Assembly (NCBI RefSeq): GCF_900167415.1 | Contig: NZ_FUWU01000019.1 | Coordinates: 1-55,746, forward strand | DNA: 55,746 nt | Origin: Fibrobacter intestinalis | GTDB taxonomy: Bacteria; Fibrobacterota; Fibrobacteria; Fibrobacterales; Fibrobacteraceae | Direction: 5' to 3' | In this document: in pieces, positions 7,622 through 18,278 of the stretch | How the letters are laid out: each line of letters starts with the position of its first letter | How positions within the stretch are numbered: position 1 is the stretch's first letter | The notes under the pieces: model-generated | Seen by the model: the letters and a program-made list of their open reading frames with translations, nothing else | Told to the model about the DNA's origin: nothing | Database searches by the model: none | Program-made: the position numbers and the translations under genes

Positions 7622-9015
7622 TTCGCATTCTGATGGGGATACTCTTTTTGTTGCCGGTTTTGGCCGGTGCTTGGAATTTAACGGAAAAGAAAATCCCCGA
7701 CTGGATCCGATTTGAATCTAGGATTCGCCCTCGCCAATCGTTCGAAATCCTTTTGGCGGAGCGTTTGTGTGAAAAAACGAAATGCGACGGTTTTTCCGCC
7801 GCGGAAATTTTGCAGAAAATTTGGAATGGAACTGCGGATTCGCTGGAAGTTTTTCGCATTAGCCGTTCGACGGCGGTGGAAATTCTGCATTTGCCGCAGA
7901 ACCGCAGAACATTTCGGCGTTCAGAATTTGAAAATGCTCGGCCTTTGCTTCGGCAATATGCGGAACGCGAGGACTCTCATCCTTTAACGCGGGAATTCAT
8001 CCGTTTAAATTCGGTGCTGGATTTGTACGATTCCATCCAGTCGGATTTTCTTGTGCATCGGGCTGTGCCTGAGGAGTCGCTATCATCGGAGGAATTGAGA
8101 AAATTGCAGGCGGAAGCTTTTTATCTGTCCATTGATCCCATGTTTTTTATTTGGATTCTTTCCTGTTGCGCGTTTTGCCTTGCGGCTTTGGGAAACCGGT
8201 CTCGGCGAGCTTTTCGGGCAGGCTGGATCTTAGAAGTTCTGCTCGCTTTCGGAATTTTTACGGTATTTGTTTGGCGGGGAATTTGCGAAGGGCGCTTGCC
8301 GTTTGCATCGCTTTATGAAATGGTGATGACGGTGGCTTTTGGCATTGCGGCTCTCACGGGAATTGTTGCGCCAAAAACGAAGATGTCGGGAGTTTTGCTG
8401 GGGGGCGCGGGAACCGTATTTTTGCTGGTGACGCTTCTTCGATTGGCGTTTCCGGTCAGCGGCGCATTTGAACCGGTTTCCCTGCTTTTGAATTCGCCGT
8501 TTTGGCTATCCTTGCACGTTCTGACGATTGCTTTTGGCTTTTGCGCGCTGATTTTTTCGAGTGTTGCCGCCCATATTTCTTTGTGGCTTGGCGTTTTTAG
8601 AAAGGCACCGTCCGAATCGCTTCGTTCCATTTTGCGGGCGACTCTTCGGATTGGCTTTGTCTTTTCTGCCTTGGGGACGGTTTTGGGCGGATTTTGGGCG
8701 GATATCGCATGGGGGCGTTTTTGGGGCTGGGATCCCAAGGAATGCGCCGCTTTATTGGTGCTGCTTTGGACGTTGATTCTTTTGCATCTGGAACACGGAA
8801 ATTGGATTTCTGCAAAAACTTGGGATGCTTTGTCCGCTTTTTTGCTGGTCGTTATTGCGTTCTGTCTTTTTGGCGTAAACCTCTTGGGTGTCGGTCTCCA
8901 CAGTTACGGTTATTCTCCCAGCGTCTTTTTCGCTTTTAGCGCTTTTTCCATTTTAGATTCGTTGCTGATTGGCTTTGCGTATTTTTTGTCGCGCAAGAAC
9001 TGTCAGATTCCGTAG
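7618..9015 (+). CDS. ccsA: Cytochrome c biogenesis protein CcsA/ResC
   Basis: A 465-residue membrane protein of System II cytochrome c maturation. The tryptophan-rich heme-binding WWD signature is present as WGRFWGWDPKE at about 364-374. Conserved flanking histidines are in SLHVLT (~300) and GVGLHSYGYS (~425), the usual heme ligands. An N-terminal membrane segment and a ~150-residue extracytoplasmic region precede the core, which has about six to seven membrane helices. The ATG at 7618 overlaps the resB stop. The gene runs 13 bases into the end of the convergent tatD-type gene. Confidence 0.87.
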   Translation: MIRILMGILFLLPVLAGAWNLTEKKIPDWIRFESRIRPRQSFEILLAERLCEKTKCDGFSAAEILQKIWNGTADSLEVFRISRSTAVEILHLPQNRRTFRRSEFENARPLLRQYAEREDSHPLTREFIRLNSVLDLYDSIQSDFLVHRAVPEESLSSEELRKLQAEAFYLSIDPMFFIWILSCCAFCLAALGNRSRRAFRAGWILEVLLAFGIFTVFVWRGICEGRLPFASLYEMVMTVAFGIAALTGIVAPKTKMSGVLLGGAGTVFLLVTLLRLAFPVSGAFEPVSLLLNSPFWLSLHVLTIAFGFCALIFSSVAAHISLWLGVFRKAPSESLRSILRATLRIGFVFSALGTVLGGFWADIAWGRFWGWDPKECAALLVLLWTLILLHLEHGNWISAKTWDALSAFLLVVIAFCLFGVNLLGVGLHSYGYSPSVFFAFSAFSILDSLLIGFAYFLSRKNCQIP

Positions 9016-11893: not shown

Positions 11894-12721
11894 TTAAGTC
11901 GAAAAGCTATTTTCCACATTCATGCTGCCGCTCCGAAATCCTTCCAAATCCAAGGAAACATAAGCGAATCCAGCTTGTTTGCATTCGCGGAGAATCGCCG
12001 CTTTGTGCTGAAATAATTTTTCAAAATCTTTAGGAAGCACTTCGATTCTTGCCAACTCGTTGCTATCGCTTCCGTGAATGCGGACTCGGAACTGCTTGAA
12101 TCCAAGTTGAAAAAGAAATTGTTCGGCGCTGGAAACCATTTCCAGACGGCGCTCCGTAATTTTTTCCCCATAAACAAATCGGGAAGCAAGACAGGCGAAA
12201 GAAGGTTTATTCCATGTAGAAAGTCCCAAATCCTTGGAAAGTTCCCGAATGTCCTTTTTGGAAAGTTTCGCCTCTCGCAACGGACTTTCAATGCGAAGTT
12301 CTTCAATAGCTTTCAATCCGGGGCGATAGTCTTGCAAATCGTCCACGTTGCTGCCTTCGCAAAGGGCGGATAAAAAGTTGCTGGCGGCAATCCTTTGAAA
12401 TTCTGAAAAAAGATGACGCTTGCACAAGTAGCATCGATTTTTTGGATTTGCGGCAACGCCTTCCACATGGAGTGCTTTAAAAGGATAAAAGATTTGCCGG
12501 ATTTTTTCTTTTGTACAAAACGCTTCCGTTTCTAGCCTTTCGCGTTCCGTGAAAAATTCAGACATTGCGGTAATGGCAACCGCTTTTTCACCTAAAACGT
12601 CGTGGGCAACTTTCAATAAAAACGTAGAATCCACTCCGCCTGAAAAAGCTACGGCGACACTTTCTTGTTTGCACAGAAAATTTTGCAAAGTCTGCAATTT
12701 ATTTTGTAATTCCGGAGTCAT
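11894..12721 (-). CDS. larE: LarE, ATP-dependent sacrificial sulfur transferase for the nickel-pincer cofactor
   Basis: A 275-residue PP-loop enzyme that activates a carboxylate of pyridinium dicarboxylate mononucleotide by adenylation and donates sulfur from its own cysteine. The PP-loop is SGGVDST at 27-33, a CYLCK block is at 97-101, and Cys177 in PSFACLASR matches the sacrificial Cys176 of the Lactobacillus plantarum enzyme. It is the last gene of the minus-strand operon, 20 bases after larC. No larA (lactate racemase) is present in the window, so the client enzyme of the cofactor is open. Confidence 0.9.
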   Translation of the reverse strand: MTPELQNKLQTLQNFLCKQESVAVAFSGGVDSTFLLKVAHDVLGEKAVAITAMSEFFTERERLETEAFCTKEKIRQIFYPFKALHVEGVAANPKNRCYLCKRHLFSEFQRIAASNFLSALCEGSNVDDLQDYRPGLKAIEELRIESPLREAKLSKKDIRELSKDLGLSTWNKPSFACLASRFVYGEKITERRLEMVSSAEQFLFQLGFKQFRVRIHGSDSNELARIEVLPKDFEKLFQHKAAILRECKQAGFAYVSLDLEGFRSGSMNVENSFST

Positions 12722-12741: not shown

Positions 12742-14040
12742 TTAATCGGCGAATCCTTCGGTGAACGAGGCTTCGGCAATGCGACGGGCTTCGTCAAAAA
12801 TTTCCCGGAAGGTAGCAGCCGGATTTTTTTGTTGGGCTTCACAGACGCTTTCGTATTCCGGATAAAAGCGGACAATGTCTTTCCAACTGCATTTTTTGAC
12901 TTGAAGGATTCCGTATTTTGTAGGAACCTCCTGAATTTTCCGTTCCATGCAGATTCGCCGGGCGGCGTATTGCCGAACGCCGATGGTTGTGGTATAACGC
13001 AAAATGGCATCGGCGACGTTTTCCCCTTTTTCCCCTTCGGGAACGATGGCTTTCAACAAAACTCCCGGACGGTTCTTTTTCATTTGGCAGGGAATAAAAT
13101 TCACATCGGCAGCTCCAGCAGTAAATAATTTTTCCATGGCAAATCCCAATTCTTCTGGGGTGGAATCGTCGATGTTCGCTTCTAAAATCTGGATGGATTT
13201 TTCTTTTGCATTTTTCTTTTCAGAAGAGTTGGCCTCATCATTTAAAATCATAGCCCGCAGAAAATTCGCTTTTCCAAAATCCCGTTTGCCCAGCCCGATG
13301 CCGATTTTTTCAATTTGGTAAATTTCGGGAAGGCGTTTTTTTGTACGCAAAGCGGCGACAATGGCGATGCCTGTAGGGGTGACCATTTCTCCTTTGACGC
13401 TTGTCTTTTGGAGCGCAATTCCGTAAGTGGCTGCGATGTTTGCCACGGCAGGAACGGGAACCGGGAGCGCACCGTGCTGGGTCAGGACTTCTCCCGAACC
13501 TTCGTGCAGCGATTCTACAACGGTATTTTCAACGCCCAAATCATCCATTAAAACGGAGACTGCCAAAATATCCGCAATGGAATCCAGCGCGCCCACTTCG
13601 TGGAAATGCACTTCTTCTTTAGAAACGCCATGGGCTTTGGCTTCCGCGTCGGCGATGATTTCAAAAATGCGGTGGGCGAGATTTTTGGCACGAGGTGTCA
13701 ATTTCGCCTGGTCCACGATTTCAAAAACTTCGGCAAGGTGGCGGTGAGAATGCCCATGATGTCCATGAGATTCGTGGTAGTGATGCTCGTGATTTTCGTG
13801 ATAAGATTCTTCGTGGTGCTCTGTATGGTCCGCGTCTTTTCCGTGAACGAAAACCTGAAAATCCAATCCGGAAATGCTATAGGAATTTTTCCGTTCAAGA
13901 GCGTAATGCAAACCCAGGCTGTGTAAATCGGCGAAAAGGGCGTTCAGTTTTTCCCGACTTCCTCCCAAATCCAAAAGAGCGGCAACTGTCATGTCTCCGC
14001 TAATTCCGCTGGCACCTTCCAGATATAAATACTTTGCCAT
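12742..14040 (-). CDS. larC: LarC, nickel insertion protein for the nickel-pincer cofactor
   Basis: A 432-residue CTP-dependent cyclometallase that places nickel into the pincer nucleotide. N-terminal YLYLEGASGISGDM is the family start. A His-rich segment at 66-101 carries about 15 histidines and is a likely nickel store. The C-terminal part has the EANIDDSTPEELG block. In lactobacilli larC is split and read by programmed frameshifting; here it is one uninterrupted frame. AGGAG precedes the ATG. It lies 28 bases after larB and 20 bases before larE. Confidence 0.9.
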   Translation of the reverse strand: MAKYLYLEGASGISGDMTVAALLDLGGSREKLNALFADLHSLGLHYALERKNSYSISGLDFQVFVHGKDADHTEHHEESYHENHEHHYHESHGHHGHSHRHLAEVFEIVDQAKLTPRAKNLAHRIFEIIADAEAKAHGVSKEEVHFHEVGALDSIADILAVSVLMDDLGVENTVVESLHEGSGEVLTQHGALPVPVPAVANIAATYGIALQKTSVKGEMVTPTGIAIVAALRTKKRLPEIYQIEKIGIGLGKRDFGKANFLRAMILNDEANSSEKKNAKEKSIQILEANIDDSTPEELGFAMEKLFTAGAADVNFIPCQMKKNRPGVLLKAIVPEGEKGENVADAILRYTTTIGVRQYAARRICMERKIQEVPTKYGILQVKKCSWKDIVRFYPEYESVCEAQQKNPAATFREIFDEARRIAEASFTEGFAD

Positions 14041-14068: not shown

Positions 14069-14747
14069 TTAATGGTGGGCGATTTGTTTTAAAATGCGGC
14101 AGGCTTGGATGGCGGCACCAAATCCGTTGTCGATGTTTACTACGGAAATTCCTTCGGCGCAGGAATTGATCATGGAAAGCAAAGGAACGATTCCTTGTAA
14201 GGAGACTCCATAACCTACAGAAGTAGGCACGGCAATAACGGGCGCTTGCACAAGTCCAGCAAGAATTCCCGTCAAGGCTCCTTCCATTCCTGCGATGGCG
14301 ATAACCACATTTGCCCTGCGAATTTGTTCAATTTTGGACAAAAGTCGATGAAGCCCAGCAACGCCTATGTTAAAGAATTTTTCAACGGTCGCTCCCTGAA
14401 ATTCGGCAACAGTTGCCGCTTCTTCGGCGATGGGCAAGTCGGCGGTTCCCGGCACAGCAAATGGCGATTTTCCCGGCAAGGGCTTGGGGCTTTCGATTCC
14501 TTAAAGAAAGAATTTTTGAAGTGGTGTCGTAGTGCACTTCCGGCATGGCGTTTCGTACAAATTCATACTGTTCCCATGAGCATCGGGCGCCCAAAGCATT
14601 GCAGGAATTTTTTTGAAATGCCGAAAAAATCTGGAGCAGCTGTTCCTTCGTTTTTCCAGAGCAAAAAACCGTTTCGTCAAATCCTGTGCGCTCCCGACGA
14701 GAAAGATCCAATTTGGCAAATCCCAGTTCCAGATAGTTCTCTTTCAT
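14069..14747 (-). pseudogene. larB: larB, nickel-pincer cofactor carboxylase, interrupted by a one-base frameshift
   Basis: LarB carboxylates and hydrolyses nicotinic acid adenine dinucleotide, the first step of the pincer cofactor pathway. Two frames together give one full protein of about 225 residues. The first runs from ATG 14747 to 'GKIAICCAG'; the second continues with 'TADLPIAEEAATVAEFQG', then VAGLHRLLSK, IAGMEGALTG, VIAVPTSVGYG and VVNIDNGFGAA, all LarB blocks. The join falls at GGGAACC (14444-14450, minus strand), where one extra A puts the frames out of register. This may be a sequencing error, a fresh mutation or programmed +1 frameshifting. The start overlaps the tatC stop (ATGA). 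Confidence 0.8.
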
Positions 14748-15598
14748 TTTTCACCGCCTTGACGATTGTCCGCTTCTTTTGCTTTTTCACTTTCCTCTAT
14801 TTTTTTACTGCCGCCGTTAGGCGCAAACACGTCAAACGACGCAATATCCCGAGCGTCCCGCTGCTCTTTCATGGTGGGAGCGTTCCTGTATTTTCGGGCA
14901 AAGAACAGCCCCGCTTCAAAAAGCAAATAAGTGGGAGTGCCCAGCATCAGTTGGCTTACAATGTCCGGCGGAGTCAAAAGAGCTGCCAGAATCAAAATCA
15001 GGATAATGATAAAGGGACGCTTTTTTTGAACAGATTCGTATGAAAAAAATCCCCAGCGCACCAATGCGTATGTGAGAATGGGAAATTGGAACATAACGCC
15101 AAAGGCCAGAGAAAGCCAAATGCCAAGGGTCACGATATTGGAAACGCCGAAAACGGGCTGCAAGGATTCCGTTGAAAAGCTGACTCCGAACTTAAGAATC
15201 AGGGGGAAACAAAGAGTCAAGAAAAAGACGACGCCTATTACAAACAAGCTGCTGGAAAGCCAAACCAGTCCCCGCAAAAATTTCCGTTCATCGTCGTATA
15301 AAGCCGGAAGGATGAACTTCCAGATTTCCCAAGCGATAAACGGAAAGCAGATGACCACATCCAAAAGGGCGGCAAGTTTCAGCTGCAATAAAAAAACCTT
15401 CATGGGCGAAAAGTAATGGAGGGTGGCGTGGGTGTCCACAATAATGCGTTCCGAAAGAAAATCCAAAGCGTAGGGAGCGGCAAAAAACATAGGGATAAAG
15501 CCTATTCCCAGTGCAATGAAGCTATGGATAAGCATTTTCCGCAATGCTTCCAGATGAAAAATCAGGCTGCTTTCGTTTGGATTGTCTTGGTCTTGCAA
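14744..15598 (-). CDS. tatC: Sec-independent translocase TatC
   Basis: A 284-residue membrane protein with six predicted helices, the receptor core of the twin-arginine translocase that exports folded proteins. The family start SLIFHLEALRKMLIHSFIAL is clear, and helices follow near 25-45, 73-95, 105-130, 150-180, 195-212 and 215-232. The C-terminal ~50 residues are charged and cytoplasmic, longer than in E. coli TatC (258). The start appears to be TTG. It lies between tatA and larB, inside an operon that encodes its own likely Tat substrate. Confidence 0.9.
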   Translation of the reverse strand: MQDQDNPNESSLIFHLEALRKMLIHSFIALGIGFIPMFFAAPYALDFLSERIIVDTHATLHYFSPMKVFLLQLKLAALLDVVICFPFIAWEIWKFILPALYDDERKFLRGLVWLSSSLFVIGVVFFLTLCFPLILKFGVSFSTESLQPVFGVSNIVTLGIWLSLAFGVMFQFPILTYALVRWGFFSYESVQKKRPFIIILILILAALLTPPDIVSQLMLGTPTYLLFEAGLFFARKYRNAPTMKEQRDARDIASFDVFAPNGGSKKIEESEKAKEADNRQGGEK

Positions 15599-15618: not shown

Positions 15619-15861
15619 TTATGCTTCCGAAGATTTTTCTTTTTCGGAAAGGTCAGCCTTTTCTGCTTTTACTGCAGTTTCGCCCGCTTTGTCAATGGTC
15701 TTTTCCAAATCGGCGGCTTCCTTTTCCAGCGATTCCTTTGCCTTCTTGTATTCGTATTTGGCTTTGCCCAGAGAGCGGGCAAGTTCAGGAATCCGCTTGC
15801 CACCAAAAAGCAGAAGCACCACCACGGCAATCAAGATGATTTCGGGAATTCCGAGAGACAT
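15619..15861 (-). CDS. tatA: Sec-independent translocase subunit TatA
   Basis: An 80-residue protein with one N-terminal membrane helix ([23 protein letters not shown]), the Phe-Gly hinge FGG, an amphipathic helix and a charged tail. Together with TatC this makes a minimal TatA-TatC translocase; no separate TatB is seen. AAGGAG precedes the ATG. The gene lies 12 bases after the DUF362 gene, whose product carries a Tat signal. Confidence 0.88.
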
Positions 15862-15873
15862 AAAACTCCTTGG

Positions 15874-16857
15874 TTAAATTTCTATCAAGTTGTAGCGACG
15901 GTTGCCCAATTTCAATGCATCGGCAGCTTCCAACTGGTGCAGACCTTCACGGCTTTCAATGCGTTCCTTGATGTCGTGCAATTCGTTGGCGGGCAACTTG
16001 TAAAGCAAATCGATGGACGCCTGGTCGATAGCCAAAAGGTCTGTGGAAGCGAGAATCCCGATGTCACGGCAGGTAGGTTCCGCAGCCCGAAGCCCCGCAC
16101 AGTCGCAATCCACGGACATACGACGCATCACGTTCAAAAATACAATATTCTTTCCGAAATGGTCGCAAGTCGCTTTGGCGCTGTCTGCCATCAGTTCCAT
16201 AAAGTAAGATTTTCCCGGCCAGGAAACAGTTGAAGCGTCTGCATCCAAGGGGACGCCGTGGACTTCCTTTTTTCCGATTTGTCCGCCGGCGCAACCGATG
16301 GCGATGTTTTTCAAGGAGCCGCCGTAACCGCCCATGGCGTGGCCTTTGAAATGAGTCAGCACAATCATGGAATCGTAATTCAGCATGTGCTTTCCCACGT
16401 GCAATTCTTTCAGGTGCTTGCCGCCCTTGACAGGAATCGCCGTCTCGCCTTCTTCGTCCATAATATCCACCGGGCTAAAAGTCCAGCCGTTCACTTTTAA
16501 AGCTTCCCGATGATCTTCCGTGGTGTAGCGGTCGCCTTTGTAAAGCGTGTTGGTTTCCACAATGGTGCTGTTGGGAACCTGCGCCTGAAACTCCTTTACC
16601 CATTCCCGGGGCAAAATGTTCGGGCCGTTCTTTTCGCCGGTGTGGAGTTTAATGGCGACTTTTCCCCGAATTCGGTCCCCTTTGATTTTTTGATAAAGGG
16701 CGATGAGGGTTTTTGCGTCCAGTGTTTTAGAAAAATACACGTCGGAAACCGCTTCCGATTTTCCGGCGGCAGCGGCAGGCTTTACGCCCAAAGTTGCAGC
16801 TGCAGTTCCGCCAATGGCAACGCCTGCGGATGCTTTCAAAAATTCTCTTCTGTCCAT
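15874..16857 (-). CDS. Tat-exported DUF362 family protein, possible nickel-pincer client
   Basis: A 327-residue protein with a Tat signal (DRREFLK at 2-8, hydrophobic stretch, AAAA cleavage region near 28-31). The rest is a DUF362 domain (PF04015, function unknown). Its most conserved segment is THFKGHAMGGYGGSLKNIAI at 168-187, followed by GC (Cys189) and a KKEVH ending at His200. Cys251, Cys253 and Cys263 form a second Cys group, as in iron-sulfur-type relatives. His173, Lys183 and His200 are spaced much like the LarA cofactor residues His174, Lys184 and His200. The gene sits with tatAC and larBCE in one operon. A periplasmic redox or racemase-type enzyme carrying a metal cofactor is my inference; no activity is known. 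Confidence 0.75.
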   Translation of the reverse strand: MDRREFLKASAGVAIGGTAAATLGVKPAAAAGKSEAVSDVYFSKTLDAKTLIALYQKIKGDRIRGKVAIKLHTGEKNGPNILPREWVKEFQAQVPNSTIVETNTLYKGDRYTTEDHREALKVNGWTFSPVDIMDEEGETAIPVKGGKHLKELHVGKHMLNYDSMIVLTHFKGHAMGGYGGSLKNIAIGCAGGQIGKKEVHGVPLDADASTVSWPGKSYFMELMADSAKATCDHFGKNIVFLNVMRRMSVDCDCAGLRAAEPTCRDIGILASTDLLAIDQASIDLLYKLPANELHDIKERIESREGLHQLEAADALKLGNRRYNLIEI

Positions 16858-16882: not shown

Positions 16883-17179
16883 TTAGGGACGAATGACCCG
16901 TTTAGGATCTTTGACGATTAAGTTGGCAAGCCAAATCAAAAGCCCTAGAGCCACGGCGGCAAATCCGAGAACGGCATCGTTCAGCATATCGGAAAGAGCC
17001 GGCGTGAAAAATTCAGCCTTTTGCTCGGCGTATTCAAAAGCTGCATCCACAAGCCACATGAGGGAAGCTCCCCAATAGCAATAGCACAATGTGGAAAAAC
17101 GCCACAGATTTTTCGGAGCGTCCTTATACCAGAGAATACTTGCAAAAATGGCTGCGAATAAAACGACCAGCAGCGTCAT
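16883..17179 (-). CDS. Small membrane protein of unknown function (98 aa)
   Basis: Three membrane helices are predicted: about residues 1-18, 24-48 and 65-87, with a Trp-rich short second loop (LWRFSTLCYCYWGASLMW). I chose ATG 17179, which follows the stop of the upstream gene by one base (TGATATG) and has AGGAAA before it; an in-frame start at 17203 would overlap that gene. No family is recognised. Tight coupling with the 139-residue membrane protein and the DUF362 gene suggests the two small proteins form a membrane anchor or electron path for the exported DUF362 protein, which is inference. Confidence 0.65.
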   Translation of the reverse strand: MTLLVVLFAAIFASILWYKDAPKNLWRFSTLCYCYWGASLMWLVDAAFEYAEQKAEFFTPALSDMLNDAVLGFAAVALGLLIWLANLIVKDPKRVIRP

Positions 17180-17180
17180 A

Positions 17181-17600
17181 TCAGTTTTCCTTTTTCTCTT
17201 CAATCGGAAGAGGCTGCAATGCGGCGCGCTTGGCCATAACGCTCTTGAAAGCGATGATTCCCGCCCAGACGGTGGTGACCAACGCCGCCATGGATACGCC
17301 GACCGTAGCCATTTCGTGTAACATCACTTGGGTTTCCGCCGCATCTTGCGCCGCCGTCAGGAACGGATACCAAGGTTGGATTTCCCCGTGCCACAGGTGT
17401 TCAAAAGCCAGCAAAGCTGAACCGCCCCAAAGTAAATTGGAGAGCAATTTCAATTTTTTATAAAGCGGCTCCTTTGGCGCAAAATCCACTTTTTCAACAG
17501 AAAGTTCCTTGGATTCCTTTTGAATCGCCTTTTTTTCCAGAACGTGGGTGGCGATGGTAACGATGGCGGCTTCTGCCGCTGGAACAACAAAACAGGCCAT
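17181..17600 (-). CDS. Small membrane protein of unknown function (139 aa), first gene of the DUF362-tat-lar operon
   Basis: A hydrophobic N-terminus (ACFVVPAAEAAIVTIATHVLE), a charged middle, and two further helices at about 54-73 and 97-118. A conserved-looking HLWHG and a short Gln/His-rich loop lie between the helices. I do not recognise the family. AAGGAG sits six bases before the ATG. It is the promoter-proximal gene of the minus-strand operon, facing the MerR-type regulator across 192 bases. Confidence 0.7.
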   Translation of the reverse strand: MACFVVPAAEAAIVTIATHVLEKKAIQKESKELSVEKVDFAPKEPLYKKLKLLSNLLWGGSALLAFEHLWHGEIQPWYPFLTAAQDAAETQVMLHEMATVGVSMAALVTTVWAGIIAFKSVMAKRAALQPLPIEEKKEN

Positions 17601-17792: not shown

Positions 17793-18278
17793 ATGCCTTA
17801 TTCCATCGGTCAGGTCGCACAGAAGACAGGGCTTTCCGCACATACTCTTCGCTATTACGAAAAAGAAGGTTTGCTGCCGTTTGTCAAAAAGACGCATTCC
17901 GGCATTCGTACTTATAACGATGAAGATATTGGCTGGCTTTCGATGATCGAATGTCTTAAAATGACGGGAATGTCGCTCAAGGATATTCGCCAATACATTG
18001 AATGGTTCAGCGAAGGCGATTCTTCTTTGCCAAATCGGTTGGAACTTTTTCGCAAACGCAAAGCAGACGTTTTAAAGGAAATGGAAACGCTCAAGACGAT
18101 TCTTGGAAAAGTGGAGTTCAAAATTCGTTTATATGAAGAGGCGGTCAAGTTGGGTTCTCTCGATTTGGCTATGCAATCGCAGACGATACAAAAATTGCGG
18201 AAGAAACTTTTTGGAAACCCGCACTTTTTTCCGACGCGGAATGATGACGCAGAAAGGCTTTCGGCGTCTGCGGACTAG
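17793..18278 (+). CDS. MerR family transcriptional regulator, NmlR/AdhR-like
   Basis: A 161-residue regulator. The N-terminal winged helix-turn-helix reads YSIGQVAQKTGLSAHTLRYYEKEGL, then YNDEDIGWLSMIECLKMTGM, a MerR block. A dimerisation coiled coil spans about 85-125. The single Cys54 in IECLKMTGM matches the redox/electrophile-sensing cysteine of AdhR and NmlR (Cys52 in B. subtilis AdhR). Such regulators respond to formaldehyde, methylglyoxal or similar electrophiles. It is divergent from the DUF362-tat-lar operon and its likely operator lies in that operon's promoter. The inducer is unknown. Confidence 0.85.
   Translation: MPYSIGQVAQKTGLSAHTLRYYEKEGLLPFVKKTHSGIRTYNDEDIGWLSMIECLKMTGMSLKDIRQYIEWFSEGDSSLPNRLELFRKRKADVLKEMETLKTILGKVEFKIRLYEEAVKLGSLDLAMQSQTIQKLRKKLFGNPHFFPTRNDDAERLSASAD

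Follow-up and report, generated by a model that had tools for sequence, protein, structure and literature searches.

The DNA analyzed in this study, hereafter the window, is a 55,746-nucleotide stretch of a Fibrobacter intestinalis contig (NZ_FUWU01000019.1). Its minus strand carries a run of genes in the order MP1, MP2, DUF362, tatA, tatC, larB (in two frames), larC, and larE, in which all three genes for the synthesis of the pincer cofactor NPN lie alongside a gene encoding a DUF362 protein. The roles assigned to the three lar products are those of a carboxylase (LarB), a sulfur transferase (LarE), and a nickel insertase (LarC) (PMC9283937, PMC11796402). The features of the run are as follows.

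17181..17600, minus strand: small membrane protein MP1; no family match; conserved beside DUF362 in Fibrobacter
16883..17203, minus strand: small membrane protein MP2; no significant family match; conserved beside DUF362 in Fibrobacter
15874..16857, minus strand: DUF362 protein of 327 aa, proposed to be an NPN-dependent, Tat-exported enzyme; PF04015 E 4.8e-41; Lar_N E 0.015; predicted LarA fold
16765..16857, minus strand: putative N-terminal twin-arginine signal (MDRREFLKASAGVAIGG...) of the DUF362 protein; RR-x-FLK motif present
16339..16341, minus strand: His173 codon, counterpart of the LarA catalytic His174 by invariance and register
16309..16311, minus strand: Lys183 codon, counterpart of LarA Lys184 (pincer thioamide) by invariance and register
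16258..16260, minus strand: His200 codon, counterpart of LarA His200 (nickel ligand) by invariance and register
16099..16107, minus strand: Cys251-Asp252-Cys253, invariant as C219, D220, and C221 of alignment A1; not in LarA
15619..15861, minus strand: tatA; TIGR01411 57.6 bits, above cut-off
14744..15598, minus strand: tatC; TIGR00945 148.2 bits, above cut-off
14382..14747, minus strand: larB, N-terminal part before the frameshift; NF033503 positions 1-93
14069..14479, minus strand: larB, C-terminal part after the frameshift; NF033503 positions 87-208, E 1e-56; one stop inside
12742..14040, minus strand: larC, NPN nickel insertase; PF01969 E 2.2e-121; TIGR00299 and NF052512 above cut-off
11894..12721, minus strand: larE, NPN sulfur transferase; TIGR00268 314.7 bits

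The DUF362 protein passed the PF04015 gathering cut-off of 24 with a score of 141.5 bits. The profile matches to its N-terminal signal fell below threshold for TAT_signal PF10518 (E 0.024, 15.0 bits, cut-off 22.7) and, narrowly, for TIGR01409 (E 0.01, 16.2 bits, cut-off 16.7). The invariant Cys-Asp-Cys sequence is possibly a metal or redox site, a role that we infer. No LarA was found in this 99.95%-complete genome, in which the only Lar_N signals were the window DUF362 protein and one fragment (E 0.34). The closest named relatives, at approximately 65% identity, place the organism probably in the Fibrobacterota, near Fibrobacter. An earlier sequence-only reading of the locus had pointed to a His-Lys-His pattern in register with LarA, which was borne out; the stronger context, comprising larB, larC, larE, tatAC, and the absence of LarA, was not mentioned in it.

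The split of larB over two frames (14382-14479, minus strand) occurs amid otherwise intact lar genes and may be a real mutation in a decaying operon or an assembly error. Promoter and terminator scans of the gene run gave results at chance level, and only the order and spacing of the genes argue for an operon. A gene encoding a MerR-family regulator (17793-18278, plus strand) is divergent from the DUF362-lar run, and a related MerR gene lies upstream of DUF362 in another Fibrobacter locus (L035).

Relationship of DUF362 to LarA

The codons of His173, Lys183, and His200 were located where the earlier reading had placed them, and its spacings of 10 and 17 residues in DUF362 against 10 and 16 in LarA were correct, as was the LarA motif it gave (LarA sequences read H-F-M-A-G-F-S-G-G-Y-K). 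Among close relatives, His173 and Lys183 were present in 86 of 86 sequences and His200 in 85 of 86, the exception being one X. All three residues were invariant in A1 (78 aligned sequences, down to approximately 31% identity), and they were included among the 18 invariant residues of A2, a set of 23 diverse DUF362 proteins mostly at 22-28% identity to A1. Because it is invariant in both sets, the trio characterizes the DUF362 types sampled and is not confined to the window protein. The spacing pattern by itself was dropped as evidence, since 28 of 674 unrelated neighboring proteins carry it. When the glycines were included (H-x3-G-[FY]-x-G-x2-K-x13-17-H), the pattern was found in none of the 674 unrelated proteins, in 73 of 74 DUF362 proteins, and in 24 of 28 LarA proteins.

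The Lar_N profile (PF09861) matched residues 151-192 of the window protein in register with Lys184 (E 0.015), at a score of 14.9 bits that lies below the gathering cut-off of 23.3. Lar_N was the sole other Pfam family matched by most A1 members (71 of 78 at E <=0.1, best 6.6e-5). Profile-profile alignment by hhalign over 250 columns, the check proposed with the earlier reading, paired His173 with His174, Lys183 with Lys184, and His200 with His200 (DUF362 and LarA, respectively); its score was weak (E 0.022, probability 2%). In two bridge proteins, L131 and L135, the same residues scored above the Pfam cut-off of each family (E 4e-42 and 7e-43 for DUF362; 29.3 and 31.6 bits for Lar_N, with a cut-off of 23.3). 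Searches of PDB sequences with phmmer and with a profile placed a LarA-type chain first, yet without significance (E 1.3 and 0.73).

An AlphaFold2 model of the window protein, built from DUF362 relatives only and without LarA sequences, reached a pLDDT of 96.0 and a pTM of 0.93. In a PDB structure search with this model, LarA-type structures filled the first 19 ranks (probability 1.00, E 1.5e-7 to 2.9e-4), and the probability dropped to 0.25 at rank 20. TM-scores to LarA-type structures were only 0.4-0.5, partly owing to the second domain of LarA. A divergent gammaproteobacterial DUF362 protein, modeled at a pLDDT of 80.3, likewise had LarA-type structures as its first nine PDB matches. Unrelated folds would have refuted the earlier proposal of a shared ancestral cofactor site, and this refutation failed in both models; the common fold and the exact sequence register support the proposal. 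These findings indicate that DUF362 shares the LarA fold, as predicted by modeling, with the cofactor residues in register; the pocket geometry is not covered.

No clear counterpart of LarA Asp72, Arg75, or His108 was found in DUF362 by hhalign; the Asp72/Arg75 region reads K-x-H-x-G-E with ambiguous gap placement, and neither DUF362 group has a histidine aligned with His108 (hhalign, A1, A2). Near that position, the A1-type proteins have an invariant Tyr106, and the canonical group reads GDS. DUF362 and DUF2088 are on record as members of Pfam clan CL0471, and DUF362 has served as an outgroup (PMC11770544). The present data confirm this known link and add the cofactor residues to it.

Association of DUF362 with lar genes in other genomes

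Window-type DUF362 genes adjoin lar genes in other Fibrobacter loci (L035-L038 and L048), in Telmatospirillum (L041), a member of the Holophagaceae (L083), and Oryzomonas (L085), and in a metagenome-assembled genome (MAG) labelled Rickettsiales (L053). An alphaproteobacterial MAG (L051) carries larC alone after DUF362. The order larE-DUF362-larB-larC occurs in four Geobacterales genomes (L204-L207), and in the gammaproteobacterium G605 (L190), larC-larE-larB is followed by a DUF362 gene of another type with an RR motif. Clusters of lar genes and DUF362 recur in Geobacterales, Gammaproteobacteria, Alphaproteobacteria, and Acidobacteriota. A second larB was present in 6 of 10 Desulfuromonadia with Tat-type DUF362, compared with one other genome (G349).

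Two of the clusters share further genes. In L190 (5049-7936), two genes come after DUF362, one for a polyferredoxin and one for an aldo/keto reductase that starts with a twin-arginine sequence, and in Fibrobacter L037 (14544-17489), a polyferredoxin and a Tat-type aldo/keto reductase are encoded between larC and larE. The pair is thus found in two unrelated lar-DUF362 clusters from two phyla. Other DUF362 proteins carry fused ferredoxin domains.

Several loci showed features of their own. Between larC and larE, L053 (11075-11740) encodes a 222-aa protein without a significant family match (best COX7C, under the cut-off), which resembles a membrane transporter and may carry nickel. The Selenomonas ruminantium plasmid pSRC1 (L217) carries a Tat-type DUF362 gene (7812-8945) amid a run of genes for aldo/keto reductases, flavodoxins, an SDR, and a carboxymuconolactone decarboxylase. 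Searches of plasmids for further lar-linked copies yielded DUF362 genes and no linked lar genes. In a same-genus relative (L209; G071:C10, 4100-6116), larB is intact and DUF362 is broken into two ORFs, and four other members of this genus lack both genes, a pattern that suggests joint decay of the pathway.

Across genomes, DUF362 predicts LarB. In the Fibrobacterota sample, LarB was present in 57 of 62 genomes with DUF362 and in 17 of 89 without it (Fisher p 2.9e-20), and 40 genomes had LarB and DUF362 without LarA. Within the Fibrobacteraceae, the counts were 27 of 30 and 2 of at least 31, respectively, and LarA was found in none; DUF362 and larB lie on separate contigs in one genus of this family, which indicates that close linkage need not be the sole reason for the association. 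Among 369 gammaproteobacterial genomes, only 11 had LarB and 6 had DUF362, with LarB in 5 of 6 DUF362-positive genomes compared with 6 of 363 DUF362-negative genomes (p 5e-8; 1.4e-6 without the centre genome). LarB matches weaker than approximately E 1e-40 were taken as PurE-type cross-matches and excluded, except for a partial LarB in G590 (E 1.6e-25, positions 131-208), without which the first fraction is 4 of 6. In Desulfuromonadia, the association is confounded by LarA, which 144 of 195 genomes carry; among Desulfuromonadia without LarA, LarB occurred in 23 of 23 genomes with DUF362 and in 15 of 28 without it (p 8e-5), counts that may be off by one because the name of one genome without LarB is missing. 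All of these Fisher p values take no account of shared ancestry and serve as description only. The control Synechococcus elongatus had LarB and DUF362 and no LarA at E 1e-6.

The association was incomplete in both directions. Of 48 named genomes with Tat-type DUF362, 37 had LarB (15 of these without a strong LarA match), and 23 of the 48 had strong LarA matches; 11 lacked LarB, 10 of which also lacked LarC. The LarB-less genomes are mostly small gut MAGs, yet several come from shared lineages; G162, G172, G174, G178, G185, G180, and G192 are among the small gut genomes with Tat-type DUF362 and neither LarB nor LarC. Bacteroides ihuae also has DUF362 without LarB. Possible explanations are gene loss, salvage, or another cofactor, and some of these organisms may use DUF362 without making NPN. 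Conversely, 16 Fibrobacterota genomes (L196-L200 among them) had LarB with no DUF362 or LarA match that passed the applied thresholds. DUF362 is therefore not the whole answer to orphan NPN, and these genomes, some of which also have larC or larE, may contain a further or a divergent NPN user.

Proposed function and alternative explanations

We consider it probable that the window DUF362 protein is an NPN-binding enzyme, although there are no biochemical data; the analysis establishes the residue register, the fold, the gene clustering, the co-occurrence across genomes, and the absence of LarA, and the binding of the cofactor, the export, and the reaction are inferred from these. With LarA absent from the genome, the protein is a strong candidate for the role of NPN user. 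In the proposed mechanism, LarB, LarE, and LarC would build NPN in the cytoplasm, and apo-DUF362 would load it there, with Lys183 linking the cofactor through a thioamide and His200 completing the coordination of nickel. The folded holoprotein would be exported by the Tat machinery of the same gene run. Proteins whose cofactors are assembled intracellularly usually leave through Tat, and the presence of tatA and tatC in the run fits this inferred export of folded DUF362. His173 would serve as a general base over the pincer ring, with hydride transfer from a substrate of the alcohol or 2-hydroxy-acid type. The hydride would more likely leave as electrons, giving a net oxidation or reduction, than be handed back to the opposite face, the route of racemization.

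LarA racemizes with two histidines, His108 and His174 (PMC12611868). Because DUF362 has no counterpart of His108 and iron-sulfur partners recur around it, we infer that net redox chemistry is likelier than racemization, a proposal that we make tentatively and at somewhat less than even confidence. The notion that DUF362 is instead an NPN racemase or epimerase, for example with Tyr106 in place of His108, concerns the reaction only and stays a real possibility, one that we do not favor. In its favor, isomerization of 2-hydroxy acids is what the characterized NPN enzymes catalyze (PMC11770544), an invariant Tyr106 lies close to the relevant position, and some LarA homologues have only one catalytic histidine (PMC12611868); on the other side, both DUF362 groups lack a histidine at the His108 position, and the iron-sulfur and aldo/keto reductase partners and the fused ferredoxins suggest redox. 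Regarding the substrate, proteins combining DUF362, CBM9, and dockerin have been reported from plant-fiber microbiomes (PMC5742341), which makes sugar-derived acids candidates worth considering. The bridge proteins L131 (1318-3492) and L135 (1357-3525) are themselves DUF362-CBM9 proteins, apparently secreted, and tie a putative pincer enzyme to carbohydrate binding. In DUF362 papers outside nickel biology, only iron-sulfur and CBM9 associations were found.

DUF362 could also have kept the ancestral LarA scaffold and residues and bind another cofactor or a bare metal, with the lar neighbors serving something else. The genomes with DUF362 that lack larB and larC, the LarB-less Bacteroides ihuae, and the lack of a clear counterpart of LarA Arg75 and of a histidine at the position of His108 are consistent with this explanation. 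We nevertheless regard it as unlikely, because DUF362 proteins at 22-28% identity all keep the exact cofactor residues, among them the thioamide lysine, lar-DUF362 clusters occur in several phyla, and no LarA was found in the Fibrobacteraceae sampled. Still less likely is a role for DUF362 as a carrier, storage, or assembly protein that binds NPN without being an enzyme; strong LarA matches in 23 of 48 Tat-type genomes and the lack of obvious substrate genes in some clusters would suit such a role, whereas the catalytic His173 is invariant in addition to the two binding residues, a Tat signal would remove a carrier from cytoplasmic LarA, and the LarA-type fold suggests an active site. That the DUF362-LarB co-occurrence merely reflects an anaerobic lifestyle or the presence of LarA, as the frequency of LarA in Desulfuromonadia (144 of 195) might imply, can scarcely be maintained, given that the association persists in LarA-negative Desulfuromonadia (23 of 23 against 15 of 28), in Fibrobacteraceae without LarA, and in Gammaproteobacteria, where LarB is rare, and that physical linkage recurs.

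The NPN-binding enzyme proposed here resembles LarA (PF09861/DUF2088; PDB 5HUQ, 6C1W, and 2YJG) in the fold of the N-domain, the His-Lys-His register, and the link to larB, larC, and larE. It differs from LarA in lacking a counterpart of His108, in its mature length (295 aa compared with approximately 420 aa), in its frequent putative Tat export or fusion to ferredoxins, and in the invariant CDC of the window subfamily. A LarA fold in which one catalytic histidine is missing is likewise found in the single-histidine LarA homologues (PDB 9Q3J and 9Q3K; PMC12611868); however, they lack the His174 counterpart (Asn), whereas DUF362 keeps that residue and lacks the counterpart of His108. The NCBIfam family NF052623 (Npun_F2552) is DUF362-type and has no named function; L003 matches it at E 1.2e-55, and the tested DUF362 proteins score far under its equivalog cut-off. 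No published NPN role for DUF362 was found in a search whose coverage left out most subscription papers and bioRxiv preprints.

A published survey found larB, larC, and larE without larA in approximately 15% of genomes, and its authors concluded that NPN has binding proteins still to be identified, cyanobacteria being a notable case, and predicted a fold distinct from that of LarA (PMC11796402). DUF362 likely represents a second branch of NPN enzymes with other partners, another location, and probably other chemistry. The broader idea that DUF362 as a whole forms a second family of NPN enzymes performing net redox, in which hydride would pass from the substrate to the pincer and electrons would go on to iron-sulfur clusters, is speculative though not implausible; if true, it would be the first use of NPN besides isomerization and would account for many LarA-less genomes that make NPN, possibly including those of cyanobacteria. 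For the window protein and its relatives, the present findings provide a concrete candidate NPN user with a named lysine and nickel ligand, for which an expression system for testing exists, and the fate of NPN in LarA-less genomes thereby becomes a testable question. If the proposal is true, a cofactor would be assigned to a large family of unknown function, exported nickel enzymes would be added to those known, and pincer chemistry may extend from isomerization to redox.
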